Below, piece by piece: positions 24,743 to 37,360 of a DNA stretch of 64,000 bases; the first letter of the stretch is position 1; each line of letters begins with the position of its first letter. The notes below the pieces were generated by a model, which saw nothing but the letters and a program-made list of their open reading frames with translations, did no database searches and was not told the origin of the DNA. This DNA is from Rhodospirillaceae bacterium. GTDB taxonomy: Bacteria; Pseudomonadota; Alphaproteobacteria; UBA6615. The position numbers and the translations under genes were made by a program. The DNA lies in assembly GCA_018667335.1 (NCBI GenBank), contig JABIVD010000052.1, positions 62,001-126,000 on the forward strand. Direction: 5' to 3'.

Positions 24743-24797
24743 GGGATCACCTCGGTTGGGCGATCAGTTTACCGGATACAACCGGCCCGCGTCGCCC

Positions 24798-24890
24798 CGT
24801 AGGGGCGGGTTTAAAACCCGCCCGCCCGCCACGCCAGCACCGACGGTGCTTTCCTCAAACATCGGGCGGGTTTAAAACCCGCCCCTACGG
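24798..24890. repeat. Paired palindromic repeats, family B (locus 2)
   Basis: Two units in opposite orientation: CGTAGGGGCGGGTTTAAAAC and following CCGCCCG (24798-24830), and GGGCGGGTTTAAAACCCGCC followed by CCTACGG (24863-24890). The core includes TTTAAA flanked by GGCGGG/CCCGCC. They lie in the divergent gap between acyl-CoA dehydrogenase and enoyl-CoA hydratase genes. Confidence 0.85.
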
Positions 24891-25713: not shown

Positions 25714-26724
25714 TCAGAACCCCTCGAGAACGATCTTGCCCTTTGCCGTCCCGGTCTCGATGAGCGCGTGGGCGGCGCGCATGGTCTCGGCGTTGATCGG
25801 GCCCATCACCTCGTTGAGGGTCGTGCGGATGCGCCCGGCGTCGATTTCGCCGGAGACATAGGTCAGCAGATTGTGCTGCTCGATCATGTCGGGCGTCTCG
25901 AACATCGAGCGCGTGTACATGAATTCCCAGTGCAGGCTGGCGGACTTGATCTTCATCGCGTCCATCGGCATCGGCAGGTTGGTCGCATCGATCGAGACGA
26001 TCGCGCCCTGGGGCCGGATCAGCTCGACCGCCGTCTCCCAGTGGCGCATGTCGTTGAAGATCGCGATGTGATCCACATGCTGCATGCCCAGCGCACGCAC
26101 CTGCTCCACCATCGGCTCACGATGATTGACCACATGGTCCGCGCCCAGTTCCCGAACCCAGCTGTCCGTCTCCGGACGTGAGGCCGTGGCGATGATCACG
26201 AGGCCGGCCGCCTTGGCGAGCTGAATGCCGATCGAGCCGACGCCGCCGCCCGCACCAATGATCAGGATCGACTGGCCGGAATCCGCGCCATCGCGGTCGA
26301 TGCCGAGATGATCGAAGAAACTCTCATACGCGGTGATCGTCGTCAGCGGCAGGGCCGCGGCCTCGGCGAAGCTCAGGCTCGTCGGCTTGGGCCCGACGAT
26401 GCGTTCGTCGATCAGCTGGAATTCCGAGTTGGAGCCGGGACGGGTCAGGTCGCCGGCGTAGAACACCTCGTCCCCCACCTTGAAGAGGGTGACGTCCGGG
26501 CCGACGGCCTCGACGACGCCGCTGGCATCCCAGCCGAGGACCTTGGGCGGATCCTCGACGCCATCCTTGGGTGCGCGGATCTTGGTGTCGACCGGGTTCA
26601 CCGACACGGCCTTCACGGCCACGAGCAGATCACGTCCTGCGGCTTCGGGCTTGGGCAGGTCCACATCAAGGAACGAATTCGGGTCCTCGATCGGCAGGTA
26701 ATGGGTCAGGGCGACGGCTTTCAT
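25714..26724 (-). CDS. Zinc-type alcohol dehydrogenase-like protein (MDR family)
   Basis: A 336-residue medium-chain reductase of the subgroup annotated as zinc-binding alcohol dehydrogenase-like. It starts MKAVALTHYLPIEDPNSF; VSVNPVDTKIRAP, LGWDASGVVEAVG and the NADPH loop IIGAGGGVGSIGIQLAK (about 152-168) mark the group. Cys ligands for catalytic or structural zinc are absent despite the family name. It converges with the enoyl-CoA hydratase gene, six bases between stops. It probably reduces quinones or alkenals; it is not clearly part of the neighbouring beta-oxidation operon. Confidence 0.82.
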   Translation of the reverse strand: MKAVALTHYLPIEDPNSFLDVDLPKPEAAGRDLLVAVKAVSVNPVDTKIRAPKDGVEDPPKVLGWDASGVVEAVGPDVTLFKVGDEVFYAGDLTRPGSNSEFQLIDERIVGPKPTSLSFAEAAALPLTTITAYESFFDHLGIDRDGADSGQSILIIGAGGGVGSIGIQLAKAAGLVIIATASRPETDSWVRELGADHVVNHREPMVEQVRALGMQHVDHIAIFNDMRHWETAVELIRPQGAIVSIDATNLPMPMDAMKIKSASLHWEFMYTRSMFETPDMIEQHNLLTYVSGEIDAGRIRTTLNEVMGPINAETMRAAHALIETGTAKGKIVLEGF

Positions 26725-29332: not shown

Positions 29333-29734
29333 TCACGTGTAGGGCAGCTTGTTGCCCTCGGCCATGACAGCGTTCGCCGTGCGGTCGGGTGCGATCATCT
29401 GCACCTGCAAGCCGTCGGGACCCTCACGGGGTGCGAGCCGGAGGGTCTGGGCCGCGAAATCCGTGTTGTCGTAGGTCAGGCTGAGGACGTTATCGGCATC
29501 GAGGGCCCAGCTGCCGCTCTCGATCGTGCAGGGGAAGTACCAGTCGAAGTTTCCGAACCGGCCGAAATGGATCAGGTTCTCCTGCCCGTCCGCACCGTGA
29601 TATATCAGCGTGTTCTCGGTCAGGAAGTTGGCCGCAGGCAGCCCGGATTCCCCGTTCACGGGACCGGGCAACAGCAGAAAACCCGCCGCAAACAGGAGCG
29701 ATACCCCGCGTAATGTCCGCCTTAAACCATTCAT
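29333..29734 (-). CDS. Hypothetical secreted protein
   Basis: A 133-residue protein with an N-terminal signal peptide: basic MNGLRRTLRG, a hydrophobic run GVSLLFAAGFLLLPG, then a likely cleavage around VNGES (residue 28-30). The mature part is a small beta-rich domain with one Cys (WYFPCTIE), aromatic-rich, without a recognised motif. The ATG at 29734 places the signal peptide at the start; the longer frame to 29782 would not. It lies 65 bases downstream of the AhpD-like gene on the same strand and may share its transcript. A TGATATATCA element lies within it. Function unknown. Confidence 0.6.
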   Translation of the reverse strand: MNGLRRTLRGVSLLFAAGFLLLPGPVNGESGLPAANFLTENTLIYHGADGQENLIHFGRFGNFDWYFPCTIESGSWALDADNVLSLTYDNTDFAAQTLRLAPREGPDGLQVQMIAPDRTANAVMAEGNKLPYT

Positions 29735-29799
29735 AATTGCAGTCTCGGCTCGTGGCCTCGCGCCCGCCTTGATCCGGATCAATCCGGACCCGCGACGGA

Positions 29800-30891
29800 T
29801 TACATATGCCGGAACGTGTTCTCCGCCGACTTGTAGGCATTGAGGCCGAGCTGCTCACGCAGTTCCTCTGTGCCCTGCAAAACCGGCGGGCCCACGGGAA
29901 TGCCCAGGCCATTGGCGACCCGGTCATTCTTGGTGAAATTGCCCGCGATGGCGGACGCACCGGCGATGGCTTCGGGGCCGAGCGCGTCGACGAGAGCTGC
30001 ACGGGCCGCGTCCAGCGCCGCCCGGTCGGTGCCAATGATCGTCTCGGCGAAGACCAGCAGCAGGTCGCCATGGGGCACGCCGATATCCAGTTCCGGGCGC
30101 ACCAGGGCTTCCGGGTTCACGTTCAGGTTTGTCGCTTGTCCACTCTCACGGAGGAACCGGGCATGCCCGGTGGTTCAGTAGAAGCAGTCGTTGAGCGCAG
30201 ACACCCGCCCGGCGACGACCTCCGCCTGGGGCCGCGTCAGTCCGTCATGATGGTTGAATTCGAAATCCATGATCTTTTCGAGCGGCAGATACTGGGCACG
30301 TTCGAGCGCGATATGGTCGTTGAACTCCTCGGGCACCAGGCTCATGGCCCGCATGATGTAGGGCTTGAACGGGCCGTACATCGCCTTGGCCACCTCGCCA
30401 CCCTCGGGCGGGTTCGGGATGGTCGGCACGAAGGCCTGCTCCTGCACCGCCTCGGGGGGCCGCACGCGTGACGGCTCGCCGGGCTGGGGCTCCGGCAAGG
30501 GCCGCAGCGGGACGCCGATGCCGCGGGCGAACACGTCGAGATTGGTGATGAACGACACCAGACCGACGATCTCGGTGTATTCCGCGTCGCTCAGGCCGCT
30601 GCCGATCGCCGCGTCGTAGAAGTCCAGATCCACATCCTTGGGCGACACCGCGACCTTGGCGATGATGTCCCGCACCACTTTGGGAAGCTCCACATCGCTG
30701 GTCGCACCGCCGTCCTCGGGGGCTTCGAGCACGCCGGCGTCGATCCCCGCCTGGCGGGCCGCCGAAATCACCGCGATGCGCTGGGCGCCGCTGCCCCAGG
30801 TGCCGGTCTGGCCGAACCGGTCGAACTGGGCCTGATGGGCGGCTTCCAGGTCCGCGCGGACCGGCAGGGCCGAATCTTCATAGAGACTCAT
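29800..30891 (-). CDS. AhpD-like peroxidase-fold protein, probable selenoprotein with in-frame TGA
   Basis: Two open segments share one frame: 238 codons ending ALNDCFY, a single TGA at 30175-30177, then 124 further codons to a stop at 29800. Reading TGA as selenocysteine gives 363 residues and the motif C236-F-Y-U239-T-T-G-H243, which matches the C-x-x-C-x-x-x-H redox site of AhpD/carboxymuconolactone-decarboxylase-fold proteins with Sec in place of the second, reactive Cys. The part after TGA (GDLLLVFAETIIG, FTKNDRVANGLGIP) reads as normal coding sequence. AhpD proteins reduce hydroperoxides or serve as disulfide reductants. Start ATG at 30891. A palindrome follows the TGA. A nonsense mutation is the alternative; no selA/B/C/D lies in the window. 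Confidence 0.75.
30137..30177 (-). promoter_or_regulatory. Candidate bacterial SECIS element after the in-frame TGA
   Basis: Beginning three bases after the TGA, ACCGGGCATGCCCGGT (30156-30171) is a perfect palindrome able to form a 6-bp stem. An alternative longer fold pairs CCAC just after TGA with GUGG about 30 bases on, enclosing a CGGG/CCCG-type helix. Bacterial SECIS hairpins lie in this position within the coding region, though the loop of the short stem is nearer to the TGA than usual. Identification is tentative. Confidence 0.45.
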
Positions 30892-30996
30892 CGAGATCAC
30901 CGTTCGTTCGTTTGGTTGTTGGCACAATTTTTAACAGAAAAAGGCGCCGGCTCACGCCCGCGCCCTCTTCAAATTCAGGTGTTCAATGCCGGCGGA

Positions 30997-31650
30997 TCAG
31001 ACGACCCAGCCCATGGCCTGGAACACGAGGCCTTCGGCGTTCTCGAGCGTCAGGAACACCCCGACACCCGCGACGACCGCGCCCGCGATACGCGCCTGTA
31101 CGGCGGTCGCCTCGGTGGCCTTCAGGACCGTGCCGACGAGCCAGCCAGCCGACAGTGCGAGCAGATACTGGGTGACGCCGAGCCCGATCAGATAACCGAC
31201 CAGGACCGCGTTGCCGACACCGGCCTCCTGGGCGGCAATCGAGCCGCCGAACGCCGAGCCGTGGAACAGGCCGAACAGCGCGAACAGCACAACCGCCGGT
31301 CCGATGGACATTGCCCGTCCGGACAGGACGATCCCGCCGAGGACCAGCAGCGACAGGCCGATGATGATTTCCGTGGCCGGCAGAGCCGTACCGAGGCTCA
31401 TCACCAGCGTGCCGACAAGCATCGCCACGATATACACGCCCGGCGCCGCAAAGCGGCGGCCGGTGTAGAGCGCTGCGATACCAACCAGGGCAATGAAGAA
31501 GAGATGGTCGAAGCCGAGGATCGGATGACCGATGCCCGACAGGACACCATGGGCGAATGTCTCCATCGGCAATCCGCCGAGCGGGTGATGCGCCAGAGCG
31601 GGTGTCGACATCGACAGCAAGGCACCGGCGGCAAACAGGAATTTCTTCAT
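30997..31650 (-). CDS. HupE/UreJ-family membrane protein (Ni/Co permease type)
   Basis: A 217-residue protein with a signal-like N-terminus (MKKFLFAAGALLSMSTPALA) directly followed by HH, then about six membrane helices. The conserved first-helix motif HPILGFDHLFFI, a metal-binding HxxxxxDH pattern of HupE/UreJ nickel permeases, is present near residues 42-53, with LFGLFHGSAFG further on. The start ATG at 31650 follows GAGGGGAAAACC. Upstream of hydrogenase or urease genes such proteins import nickel; no such genes are here, so nickel or cobalt uptake is inferred from family only. It lies 105 bases upstream of the AhpD-like selenoprotein candidate. Confidence 0.85.
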   Translation of the reverse strand: MKKFLFAAGALLSMSTPALAHHPLGGLPMETFAHGVLSGIGHPILGFDHLFFIALVGIAALYTGRRFAAPGVYIVAMLVGTLVMSLGTALPATEIIIGLSLLVLGGIVLSGRAMSIGPAVVLFALFGLFHGSAFGGSIAAQEAGVGNAVLVGYLIGLGVTQYLLALSAGWLVGTVLKATEATAVQARIAGAVVAGVGVFLTLENAEGLVFQAMGWVV

Positions 31651-31789
31651 GGTTTTCCCCTCAAGAATTTCGTCCCGGCCTGCGAACATGCGTGCGCGCC
31701 AGAATCTGCACTTCCGTTGGAACAAGCATTCGCGAAAACGGGCTCGATGGCAACTGCTTTCACCCGAATTTACACACCGGCGGTCGTGG

Positions 31790-32806
31790 CTATTGGATTT
31801 CGACGACGACCTTGCCGAAATGGCGGCCTTCACGCAGATGCGCCAGCGCCGCAGGCAGTTGGTCGAGATCAAACCGCTGATCGTCCAATGCCGGCCTGAG
31901 GCCGTTCTGGTCCACCGCGCGGAGCATCGCCTCGAACTGCTCGCGCGAGCCGCAGGTCACGCCTTCGAGCCGGATCTTGCGGGTCACCACCAGCGGCAGC
32001 CGGAACTCGTGGTTGGCGCCGGACAAAACGCCGATCAGCATGACCGCACCGCCCAGGCGCACCGCCTTGATGGATTGCTCAAGGGTGCCCGCGCCGCCGA
32101 CCTCGACGACCAAATCCAGGCCGCGTCCACCAGAGATTTCGCGGGCCGGACGCGCCCATTCGGGCGTGTCGACGTAATTTATCAAATGATCACTACCGAG
32201 GTCGCGCAAACGCTCCAGCTTTGCATCCGACGACGAAGTGGAGATCACCTCGGCGCCCGCCAGCTTGGCGAATTGCAGCGCGAAGGCCGAAACTCCGCCG
32301 GAACCTTGGGTTAGAACCAGATCGCCGGGCTTCACACCGCCCTGATCGAACACCGCGCTCCACGCTGTCAGTCCCGCGCAGGGCAGCGCGGCAGCTTCGG
32401 CGTCCGTCAGGTGCCCGGGTGTGTGGCAGAGGCCGTATTCGGGCAGCACACGCAGCTCGCAGGCCATGCCGTCGACTTGCCCGCCCAGCCCGGAGTGGAG
32501 CCCGGCCTCGTCGGGCTCGCCCGACAACCATTCCTGGAAGAAATTGGCCACCACTCGATCGCCGGCGGCGAAACGGGTGACGCCCTCACCGACGGCGACC
32601 ACATCGCCCGCGCCGTCAGACACCGGGATCAAATTCTCGGTCCGCTGGCGCGAGCCGTAGCCACCCTCGACGGTCAGCAGGTCACGGTAGTTGAGCGTCG
32701 CGGCCCGCACCCGAACGAGAACTTCGCCCGGGCCCGGTTCAGGGTCCGGCAGATCGACAACCGACAGATTGTCGATACCCGCCTTCGAGAGGACCGCCGC
32801 GCGCAT
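31790..32806 (-). CDS. Zinc-binding dehydrogenase / quinone oxidoreductase (MDR family)
   Basis: A 338-residue medium-chain reductase starting MRAAVLSKAGIDNLSV. Substrate-side motif ATLNYRDLLTVEGGYG, VSDGAGDVVAVGEGV, and NADPH loop LVLTQGSGGVSAFALQFAKLAG (about 160-178) are family features. Neither zinc site is complete, so it is probably a zinc-free NADPH-dependent enone or quinone reductase. Shine-Dalgarno is weak. The gene is 9 bases downstream of the MscS gene stop, on the same strand; its 3' end is 140 bases from the hupE start. No pathway assignment from context. Confidence 0.82.
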   Translation of the reverse strand: MRAAVLSKAGIDNLSVVDLPDPEPGPGEVLVRVRAATLNYRDLLTVEGGYGSRQRTENLIPVSDGAGDVVAVGEGVTRFAAGDRVVANFFQEWLSGEPDEAGLHSGLGGQVDGMACELRVLPEYGLCHTPGHLTDAEAAALPCAGLTAWSAVFDQGGVKPGDLVLTQGSGGVSAFALQFAKLAGAEVISTSSSDAKLERLRDLGSDHLINYVDTPEWARPAREISGGRGLDLVVEVGGAGTLEQSIKAVRLGGAVMLIGVLSGANHEFRLPLVVTRKIRLEGVTCGSREQFEAMLRAVDQNGLRPALDDQRFDLDQLPAALAHLREGRHFGKVVVEIQ

Positions 32807-32815
32807 GTGTGACCG

Positions 32816-33646
32816 CTACTCTGCGGCGTTAACGTGGTGGACGACCTGCTGCGGGTACGGAATGGAGATACCGTCCGCCTCAAGCTGTTCCTTGAGCTTC
32901 TTGGTGATGTCCCAGCGCACACCCCAGTAATCAGCGGCGTTCACCCAGACCCGAACCACAATATTCACCGAGCTGTCGGCCAATTCGGCAACGGCGACGA
33001 CCGATTCCGGGTCCTTGAGGGCGCGTGCCTCCTCACCGATCACGCGATTGATGGTGGCCATCGCGGTGTCGATGTTGTCCCCGTAATCGATGCCCATCAT
33101 CAGATCGACGCGACGGGTTGTGTGGCCGCTGAAGTTCTGGATCGCCGAACCCCAGATCTGACCGTTCGGCACGATGATCTTCACATTGTCGCCGGTCGCC
33201 ATTTCGGTGGTGAACAGGCCGATCTCCTTGACCGTGCCTGTCTGGCCGCCCGCAGAGATGAAATCACCGATCTTGAAGGGCCGGAACATCAGCAGCATCA
33301 CGCCGGCCGCGACATTGCTGAGCGTGCCCTGCAGGGCAAGGCCGATGGCCAGGCCCGCGGCACCAAAGACCGCCACAAGGCTGGTCGCCTGGACACCGAA
33401 TTGCTGCAGCGCGGCGATGATCACGAAGGCGATGATCGCGTAGCGCAGGAGACTGCCGAAGAAGCGGACCAGCGTCGTATCGATACGACCGCTGCGGCTC
33501 AGCGCGCGCTCAAGCGAACGGCGCGCCCAACCGGCGGCCATGAAGCCGATGATGATAATGGCCAACGCGCCGAGCACGTTCAGGCCATAGCTCACCAGTA
33601 CGGCGTAGACCTGTTCGAGCAGGTTCTGGATGTCTTCATTGTTCAT
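32816..33646 (-). CDS. mscS: Small-conductance mechanosensitive channel (MscS family)
   Basis: A 276-residue channel of the E. coli MscS size class. Three membrane helices (about 18-40, 60-82, 88-110) precede the pore-lining glycine/alanine helix AAGLAIGLALQGTLSNVAAG, followed by the beta-domain signature MLLMFRPFKIGDFI and IIVPNGQIWGSAIQNFS. It releases solutes on hypo-osmotic shock at the inner membrane. The ATG at 33646 has CAGGAG eight bases upstream. It is preceded by a small DUF6460-like membrane protein gene on the same strand (77 bases). Confidence 0.92.
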   Translation of the reverse strand: MNNEDIQNLLEQVYAVLVSYGLNVLGALAIIIIGFMAAGWARRSLERALSRSGRIDTTLVRFFGSLLRYAIIAFVIIAALQQFGVQATSLVAVFGAAGLAIGLALQGTLSNVAAGVMLLMFRPFKIGDFISAGGQTGTVKEIGLFTTEMATGDNVKIIVPNGQIWGSAIQNFSGHTTRRVDLMMGIDYGDNIDTAMATINRVIGEEARALKDPESVVAVAELADSSVNIVVRVWVNAADYWGVRWDITKKLKEQLEADGISIPYPQQVVHHVNAAE

Positions 33647-33723
33647 TGTGCTTGCTCCTGATTCATTTTTTCTGGCTGCGCGCCTCCCCAGGTTCGCGAA
33701 CCAGCTTGTTAACTGGGTTTCCC

Positions 33724-35968: not shown

Positions 35969-36661
35969 CTACCAATTGTAACCGACGCCGCGCTGACCCA
36001 ACCCATCATAGAGATCAAGACAGCGATGCATCCAGTCGTAGATGGGGTCGTCAGATACGAACAGCGGATAAGAACTCATCCTCCGAGCGCCGATGATCGA
36101 CCCCATGACGATGTGGTCCGCATATGATGGTTCACTTCCGCACATGAACGGCTGCGCCGCAACAACCCGGCGAAGCGGCTCCAATCGGTCGCGATATTCG
36201 ATGACCCGCTCATCGCGGCCGGACTGGACTTCCTCAAGCGGACGGCCAAAACGCTGCGGTCGGGTCCCATTGAAATATTCGACATCCTCGGGCGCAAGGT
36301 GCGCCTGAATGTCGAGTATGATCAGGGTCATCATCAACGGATGAATTCGGCTCTCGCACCAGCGCTGGACGTAACGAGCATATTCGCGGCCCCCGGCTCC
36401 GCCAAACAGCGAGGGGCCATCCGGGCAACTCTCCTCGAGATGCTCCGCTATGGCCCAGCTGTCGTCGACCCAGATACCGTCAAACTCAACCACCGGAACG
36501 GTCGAATAGGAACCATCGCCGATGCTCGGGATCTCGGTGAACTTGGTCGGAACAGTTTCGAACCGGCAACCCTTGTGGGCGAGCGCAAGGCTCGTTTTCC
36601 AACAGTTCGAACTGAACCGGCGGTCATCTCGTCCGACCAGGTCATACAGAACAATGGTCAC
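35969..36661 (-). CDS. Glutathione S-transferase family protein, copy 1 (LigE-like)
   Basis: A 230-residue GST-fold protein. The thioredoxin-like domain (1-80) has LVGRDDRRFSSNCWKTSLAL, in which S-S-N-C takes the glutathione-activating position, and VPVVEFDGIWVDDSW as the cis-Pro glutathione-binding loop; a helical domain follows. The overall look is of the LigE/LigF branch, which cleaves beta-aryl ethers or similar bonds. It is paralogous to the next gene (same length, 6 bases between). It belongs to the TRAP-TAXI linked operon. Substrate unknown. Confidence 0.82.
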   Translation of the reverse strand: MTIVLYDLVGRDDRRFSSNCWKTSLALAHKGCRFETVPTKFTEIPSIGDGSYSTVPVVEFDGIWVDDSWAIAEHLEESCPDGPSLFGGAGGREYARYVQRWCESRIHPLMMTLIILDIQAHLAPEDVEYFNGTRPQRFGRPLEEVQSGRDERVIEYRDRLEPLRRVVAAQPFMCGSEPSYADHIVMGSIIGARRMSSYPLFVSDDPIYDWMHRCLDLYDGLGQRGVGYNW

Positions 36662-36667
36662 GTCACG

Positions 36668-37360
36668 TTACCAATCGTAATCCGTATCCTGGCGCAGCAG
36701 CCCACCGTAAAGGTCGAGACAACGATGCATCCAAGCATGCACCGGATCGCCGGCATCGACCAGTGCAAACGGGCTCGTCTTGCGCGCCCAGATGAACGAC
36801 GCCATGGCGACATAGTCGGCATAGATCGGAGACGTCCCACCCAGGAACAACTGATCCGCGACGATGCGGCGTATCGGCTCGAGCCGTGCCCGCAATTCAG
36901 GCAACCGATCCTCGCGACCCACCGGCACTTCATCAATAGGCCGGCCCAGCCGCTTTGTCCGACTCTCCCAGAAATACGGCTGGTCTGCCGGGTCGAGACC
37001 CTCGTAGATGTCATGAACAATCATCGTCATAACGAGTGGATGGGTCCGTGTTTCGACCCAGCGGGCGATAAACCGGGCATATTCGATCCCCGCCGCCCCG
37101 CCAAAAAGCGACGGCGCGTCCGGATAGGTCGCCTCGAGATACATGGCGATCTCCCAGCTGTCGCCGAGACGCGTATCGCCATCCTCGATGACCGGTATGG
37201 TCGAGAATGATCCATCACCGATTGAAGATATATCGGTAAACCGGGTCGGGACCGTCTCGCAGGCGAGGCCCTTGTGGGCGAGCGCGTAGAGGGTCTTGCA
37301 GCAGTTCGAACTGAACCGCCGGTCGTCCCGCCCTACCAGATCATAGAGCCTGATCGTCAC
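36668..37360 (-). CDS. Glutathione S-transferase family protein, copy 2 (LigE-like)
   Basis: A 230-residue paralogue of the preceding GST when started at GTG 37360 (GGGAG upstream); an ATG at 37390 would add ten residues with no counterpart in copy 1. The active-site segment is DDRRFSSNCCKTLYAL and the cis-Pro loop IPVIEDGDTRLGDSW. Differences in the C-terminal helix set (FIWARKTSPFALVD) suggest a different substrate pocket. Tandem GSTs of LigE/LigF type are known to act on opposite stereoisomers of one substrate, which would fit this pair but is inference. Confidence 0.82.
   Translation of the reverse strand: MTIRLYDLVGRDDRRFSSNCCKTLYALAHKGLACETVPTRFTDISSIGDGSFSTIPVIEDGDTRLGDSWEIAMYLEATYPDAPSLFGGAAGIEYARFIARWVETRTHPLVMTMIVHDIYEGLDPADQPYFWESRTKRLGRPIDEVPVGREDRLPELRARLEPIRRIVADQLFLGGTSPIYADYVAMASFIWARKTSPFALVDAGDPVHAWMHRCLDLYGGLLRQDTDYDW

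Follow-up and report, generated by a model that had tools for sequence, protein, structure and literature searches.

A predicted AhpD-like selenoprotein with a fused, sestrin-like two-domain architecture in a marine alphaproteobacterium

The closest described counterpart of the protein reported here is the family NF041238.1 (AhpD_rel_CFYUT, "alkylhydroperoxidase-related (seleno)protein"), which a 2026 review equates with "hypothetical protein 1" of the Sargasso Sea selenoproteome (PMC13188914). The latter was reported in 2005 from four CxxU sequences and without functional evidence (PMC1088965), and the tables of that study appear to list cysteine forms of the family. AhpD-like 1 (COG2128) and AhpD-like 2 (PF02627), known from the Global Ocean Sampling data (PMC2398784), belong to the same fold superfamily and also contain a CxxU motif but are listed apart from NF041238 in reviews. 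In AhpD of Mycobacterium tuberculosis, the proton relay is composed of Glu118, Cys130, His132, Cys133, and His137, and a variant with tyrosine has also been described (PMC3141380). Sestrins retain one catalytic cysteine, located in the N-terminal domain; their C-terminal site is gone (PMC4674687), its place being taken by the acidic hinge DDYDY (PMC4674687, PMC11429811). Prokaryotic fused AhpD dimers have been discussed as precursors of the sestrins, and those with a cysteine-free N-terminal domain as sestrin analogues (PMC11429811).

The minus strand of the window, the 64-kb stretch of DNA analyzed here, contains from position 30891 to 29800 a single 363-codon frame (363 residues plus the stop) that is broken only by a TGA. 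The frame opens with an ATG at 30891, runs into the TGA at 30177-30175 (codon 239), continues for 124 sense codons, and closes with a TAA at 29802-29800. The coordinates given in the original prediction are exact, with the strand left unstated. Reading through the TGA yields the proposed motif C236-F-Y-U239-T-T-G-H243, preceded by E224, with selenocysteine (Sec) at the second position of a CxxU redox site. Open reading frame calling with translation table 11 splits the gene into two pieces (30175-30927 and 29800-30120), as had been expected of standard annotation; the annotation of this marine alphaproteobacterial gene is corrected here to one gene instead of two. In a six-frame scan of the window, this was the sole TGA with a long segment on either side whose third-position GC content is typical of protein-coding sequence, and it is therefore more than a chance occurrence.

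The read-through protein scores 361 bits with NF041238.1 (cut-off 175) over model positions 1 to 357 of 357. It carries the eponymous CFYUT motif (C236-F-Y-U239-T240), and all 37 aligned members match the same model, so that membership of the window's gene in this family is virtually certain. The suggestion that this instance may be unreported therefore holds for the window's genome only, as the family itself is already catalogued with the same CFYUT motif. The finding is a well-supported new member of a catalogued selenoprotein family, not a new family, and a solid addition to it from uncultured marine bacteria.

A family-level search of 24 genomes retrieved 22 homologues (the window's gene included) at 32 to 94% identity, each with one TGA, and in 22 of 22 the motif at this codon is C-F-(Y/F)-U-T-x-x-H. 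This bears out the contention that the TGA is no random nonsense codon. At the class level, NF041238 is found in 27 of 385 genomes as 48 copies, all with exactly one in-frame TGA, which lies at the redox motif in every locus whose sequence was read out. The same TGA occurs in three further relatives (two gammaproteobacterial assemblies and one further Rhodospirillales), whose genomes contain a tRNA-Sec above the cut-off. The in-frame TGA occupies a fixed, functional position among homologues, as is expected of a selenoprotein gene. A TGA at varied places, or a decayed downstream part, had been named as evidence that would count against the Sec reading; the place is invariant, and the downstream part is intact and well conserved. 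No cysteine form of NF041238 was found among the class members (27 of 385 genomes, 48 copies) or in the other samples searched. Since all members in the class sample carry the TGA instead of a cysteine codon, selenium appears to be indispensable to these lineages for making the enzyme. Outside its lineages the gene is patchy, given that a phylum-level draw of 398 genomes matched the window's own genome alone, and no relative of the selenoprotein was retrieved from the viral contigs and plasmids searched. One genome of the same genus (G023, C9:214130-216458) holds two tandem selenoprotein copies, L021 and L040, on one strand; these share 91% and 72% identity with the window's gene, and the TGA is present in both. 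The closer copy clusters with that gene, and the second one branches just outside.

The window's genome (3.55 Mb, 96% complete) encodes the full set of Sec genes, and the proposed check for selA, selB, selC, and selD thus came out positive for all four. The gene for selA (C5:153553-154899, 584 bits) is followed immediately by selB (C5:154932-156803, 466 bits), and the tRNA-Sec gene selC (C5:163995-164086, 71 bits; called SeC with anticodon tca by ARAGORN) is located about 7 kb from selAB. The selD gene (C5:165381-166292, 292 bits) forms the C-terminal part of a 745-residue frame (L049, G000:C5:163881-167792) whose N-terminal part resembles, by inspection, an NADH dehydrogenase-type flavoprotein; it looks like a fusion of the Ndh-SelD type described previously (PMC2398784). 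Across the class, selA is present in 27 of 27 genomes with NF041238 versus 29 of 358 without it (Fisher p 3e-26, with genomes counted as independent despite their relatedness). The sequence evidence makes insertion of Sec at codon 239 very highly probable.

A predicted bacterial SECIS hairpin, GUUCCUC-CGUGA-GAG(U)GGAC, is situated at 30138-30157 on the minus strand, 18 to 37 nt past the TGA. The bacterial SECIS model (PMC13188914) specifies a loop of 3 to 9 nt, a stem of 4 to 16 bp, a G among the first two loop nucleotides, a spacing of 16 to 37 nt, and an energy of at most -7.5 kcal/mol. The hairpin agrees with this model, with a 5-nt loop (CGUGA) at 30150-30146, 24 nt past the TGA, a G and a U as its second and third nucleotides, and a stem of 7 bp with one bulged U; the other clade has mostly an unbulged version. 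With the hairpin forced, codons +1 to +13 fold with -11.7 kcal/mol, and the unconstrained minimum-energy fold of the window's sequence, at -12.3 kcal/mol, is slightly unlike the hairpin fold. The 30-nt core alone gives -7.3 kcal/mol, and the hairpins of two relatives are weak (-5.9 for L040 and -5.3 for L079). In a sample of 50 sequences that align without gaps around the TGA, synonymous identity at codons +8 (CTC), +9 (CGT), and +10 (G-x-G) amounts to 1.00, 0.92, and 1.00, compared with at most 0.84 elsewhere (70 codons examined), and the mean 20-nt folding energy is lowest on codons +8 to +10. Covariation shows no significant excess over column shuffles (83.2% paired versus 82.9%) because the inner pairs hardly vary, whereas sliding the partner strand cuts pairing from 83% to between 35 and 54%. 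The predicted SECIS is supported by the frozen synonymous sites, the slid control, and the folding energy. The eukaryotic Rfam model RF00031 (SECIS_1) gave no match, and scanning the gene permissively against Rfam returned only subthreshold chance matches; neither outcome is informative on bacterial SECIS elements.

The predicted structure of the read-through protein (pLDDT 94.9, pTM 0.94) comprises two AhpD-like domains. The N-terminal domain (residues 1 to 149, positions 30445-30891, minus strand) has no cysteine pair, and the C-terminal domain (residues 150 to 363, positions 29803-30444, minus strand) contains the CxxU site. Compared over its full length, the model is structurally most similar to human Sestrin2 (Z 18.8 over 246 residues, rmsd 3.3, 11% identity); its C-terminal half aligns with single AhpD-like proteins (6k40, Z 13.3 over 178 residues, rmsd 3.0). 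Folded alone, residues 1 to 149 reach a pLDDT of 90.5 and match AhpD-like structures with Z scores from 9.6 to 7.2 over 106 to 118 residues in the best 17 matches, the next match having 4.0. Foldseek placed AhpD-like chains on top and sestrin lower. A profile search with sequence only reached AhpD-like structures but not sestrin, so that the link to sestrins rests on structure. Judging from these models, the protein is most likely a fused dimer of two AhpD-like domains. The AhpD-like site of the original prediction stands, but only that single site had been recognized there, whereas the predicted structure has two AhpD domains fused in one protein.

The tree of the family separates two clades. 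A branch with full support divides the 18 of 37 members that have an extra N-terminal CxxC from the side on which the window's gene lies (the root of the tree being arbitrary). The window's clade shares the CFYUT motif and the CxxU site with Sec second but is without the N-terminal CxxC of its sister clade. Within the window's bacterial family, genomes G001 and G009 hold copies of the N-terminal-CxxC clade (L043 and L036), and G001 contains one copy from each clade.

Sestrin2 and the window's protein are alike in having two AhpD-like domains in one chain. In sestrins, however, the surviving cysteine is N-terminal and the second cysteine has been lost, whereas the window's protein has a full pair with Sec in the C-terminal domain. 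The N-terminal cysteine and the DDYDY hinge that together characterize sestrins are not what is found here, as there is no N-terminal CxxC and C236, U239, and H243 are kept. The architecture is sestrin-like, but the protein is not a sestrin; it resembles instead those prokaryotic fused dimers whose N-terminal domain is free of cysteine (PMC11429811). It is somewhat likely that NF041238 represents, among the prokaryotic fused AhpD dimers proposed as sestrin precursors, the branch that uses Sec, with one clade keeping CxxC plus CxxU and the other the C-terminal CxxU only. A literature search found the terms sestrin, selenocysteine, and AhpD together only in one review on p53, and the connection between sestrins and NF041238 thus appears not to have been drawn before. 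Through the fused sestrin-like architecture, a family called hypothetical since 2005 gains a concrete structural framework.

The active site is a helix-turn-helix (30163-30222, minus strand) with predicted helices at residues 220 to 233 and 237 to 253, comprising E224 (30222-30220), C236 (30186-30184), Y238, U239, and H243 (30165-30163). None of the 37 members deviates at E224, C236, U239, or H243, and Y238 is nearly invariant. The two-helix hairpin presents the pattern Glu-(11)-Cys-x-x-Cys-x-x-x-His with Sec for the second cysteine, and the spacing of the five residues equals that of the M. tuberculosis AhpD set. That protein and PA0269 of Pseudomonas aeruginosa (PMC3141380) have the same Glu/Cys/Tyr or His/Cys/His relay with the same spacing; they differ in being single-domain proteins with cysteine, whereas the window's protein has Sec and two domains. 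The alignment of this column that had been called for finds cysteine in the solved AhpD-like proteins (C-V-Y-C and C-Y-Y-C) and the TGA in every close relative.

The explanation favored as a whole, with a probability of roughly 90%, is that of an NF041238 selenoprotein with a SelB-decoded TGA, built as a fused AhpD dimer with a C-terminal redox site. SelB with Sec-tRNA(Sec) would read the TGA at 30177-30175 as Sec, directed by the hairpin downstream. The C-terminal domain would provide the redox site, with Glu224, Cys236, Sec239, and His243 in an AhpD-type proton relay, and the N-terminal domain, which is without the cysteine pair, would probably be structural or substrate binding. By analogy with AhpD, the selenolate of Sec239 may attack a hydroperoxide or a partner disulfide, after which Cys236 would resolve the intermediate as an S-Se bond with Glu224, Tyr238, and His243 relaying protons, and the enzyme would be restored by a cellular thiol reductant. 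Such a role in peroxide or thiol reduction is reasonably probable, and a Sec-dependent hydroperoxide or disulfide reductase is the most likely assignment that this analogy suggests.

A selenoprotein with a different chemistry, either reductive dehalogenation as in the debrominase Bmp8 or a ligand sensing like that of the sestrin C-terminal domain, is rather unlikely. Bmp8 is among the structural matches (6ohi/6ohj, Z 12.5), the full-length match to Sestrin2 has a Z of 18.8, and the gene lies in a catabolic neighborhood, not in an oxidative-stress operon. The set and spacing of Glu, Cys, Cys(Sec), and His are nevertheless those of AhpD, and the C-terminal domain of sestrins has no catalytic residues (PMC4674687), whereas the window's protein keeps them in precisely that domain, which argues for the peroxide or thiol reductase.

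The decoding of the TGA itself admits two other readings. The division of the gene into two pieces by standard calling is what a nonsense mutation or a sequencing error would produce, leaving a broken gene or two genes. The same codon is nonetheless present in the 22 family-level homologues, and the 48 class-level members, from independent assemblies, have one TGA each; with a conserved, intact downstream part and complete Sec machinery, the chance of this reading is negligible, and the relatives' shared TGA refutes it. Translation of the TGA as some other residue, through a code change or leaky readthrough by tryptophan, or its use as a programmed stop for a short regulatory product, is very improbable. 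Nothing specific points to it, and partial termination would be compatible with translation alone. Against it, the window's genome uses TGA as an ordinary stop codon, as at the end of the neighboring HupE gene, and the selenoprotein genes of the relatives L025, L030, and L043 likewise terminate with TGA. Moreover, the codon falls at the redox column that is cysteine in solved homologues, and the gene co-occurs with selA. Decoding as Sec is the reading in whose favor every check that was run came out, and on this point the original prediction is supported overall.

Upstream of the selenoprotein gene, all on the minus strand, lie genes for a HupE/UreJ family protein (30997-31665, with an ordinary TGA stop), a zinc-type medium-chain dehydrogenase/quinone oxidoreductase (MDR, 31790-32806), and an MscS-type channel (32816-33649), the HupE gene being placed between the MDR gene and the selenoprotein. 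Within the genus, all three genes are conserved beside the selenoprotein; in genus g3, this holds for MscS and MDR only. Farther out are an acyl-CoA dehydrogenase, an enoyl-CoA hydratase, a fumarylacetoacetase-type hydrolase, and two glutathione S-transferases. The neighborhood gives a catabolic setting, with no specific substrate indicated. ARAGORN reported a suppressor-type tRNA (anticodon tta) at 24762-24843 and a tRNA-Ile at 25814-25903; both calls are probably false positives, because 25814-25903 sits inside a coding gene (MDR, 25714-26724). The glutathione S-transferase-like genes form a tandem pair on the minus strand (35969-36661 and 36668-37357) and are 58% identical. Directly downstream of the selenoprotein gene, at 29333-29749 on the minus strand, is a gene for a small protein without a Pfam match that is 62 to 80% conserved in several relatives.
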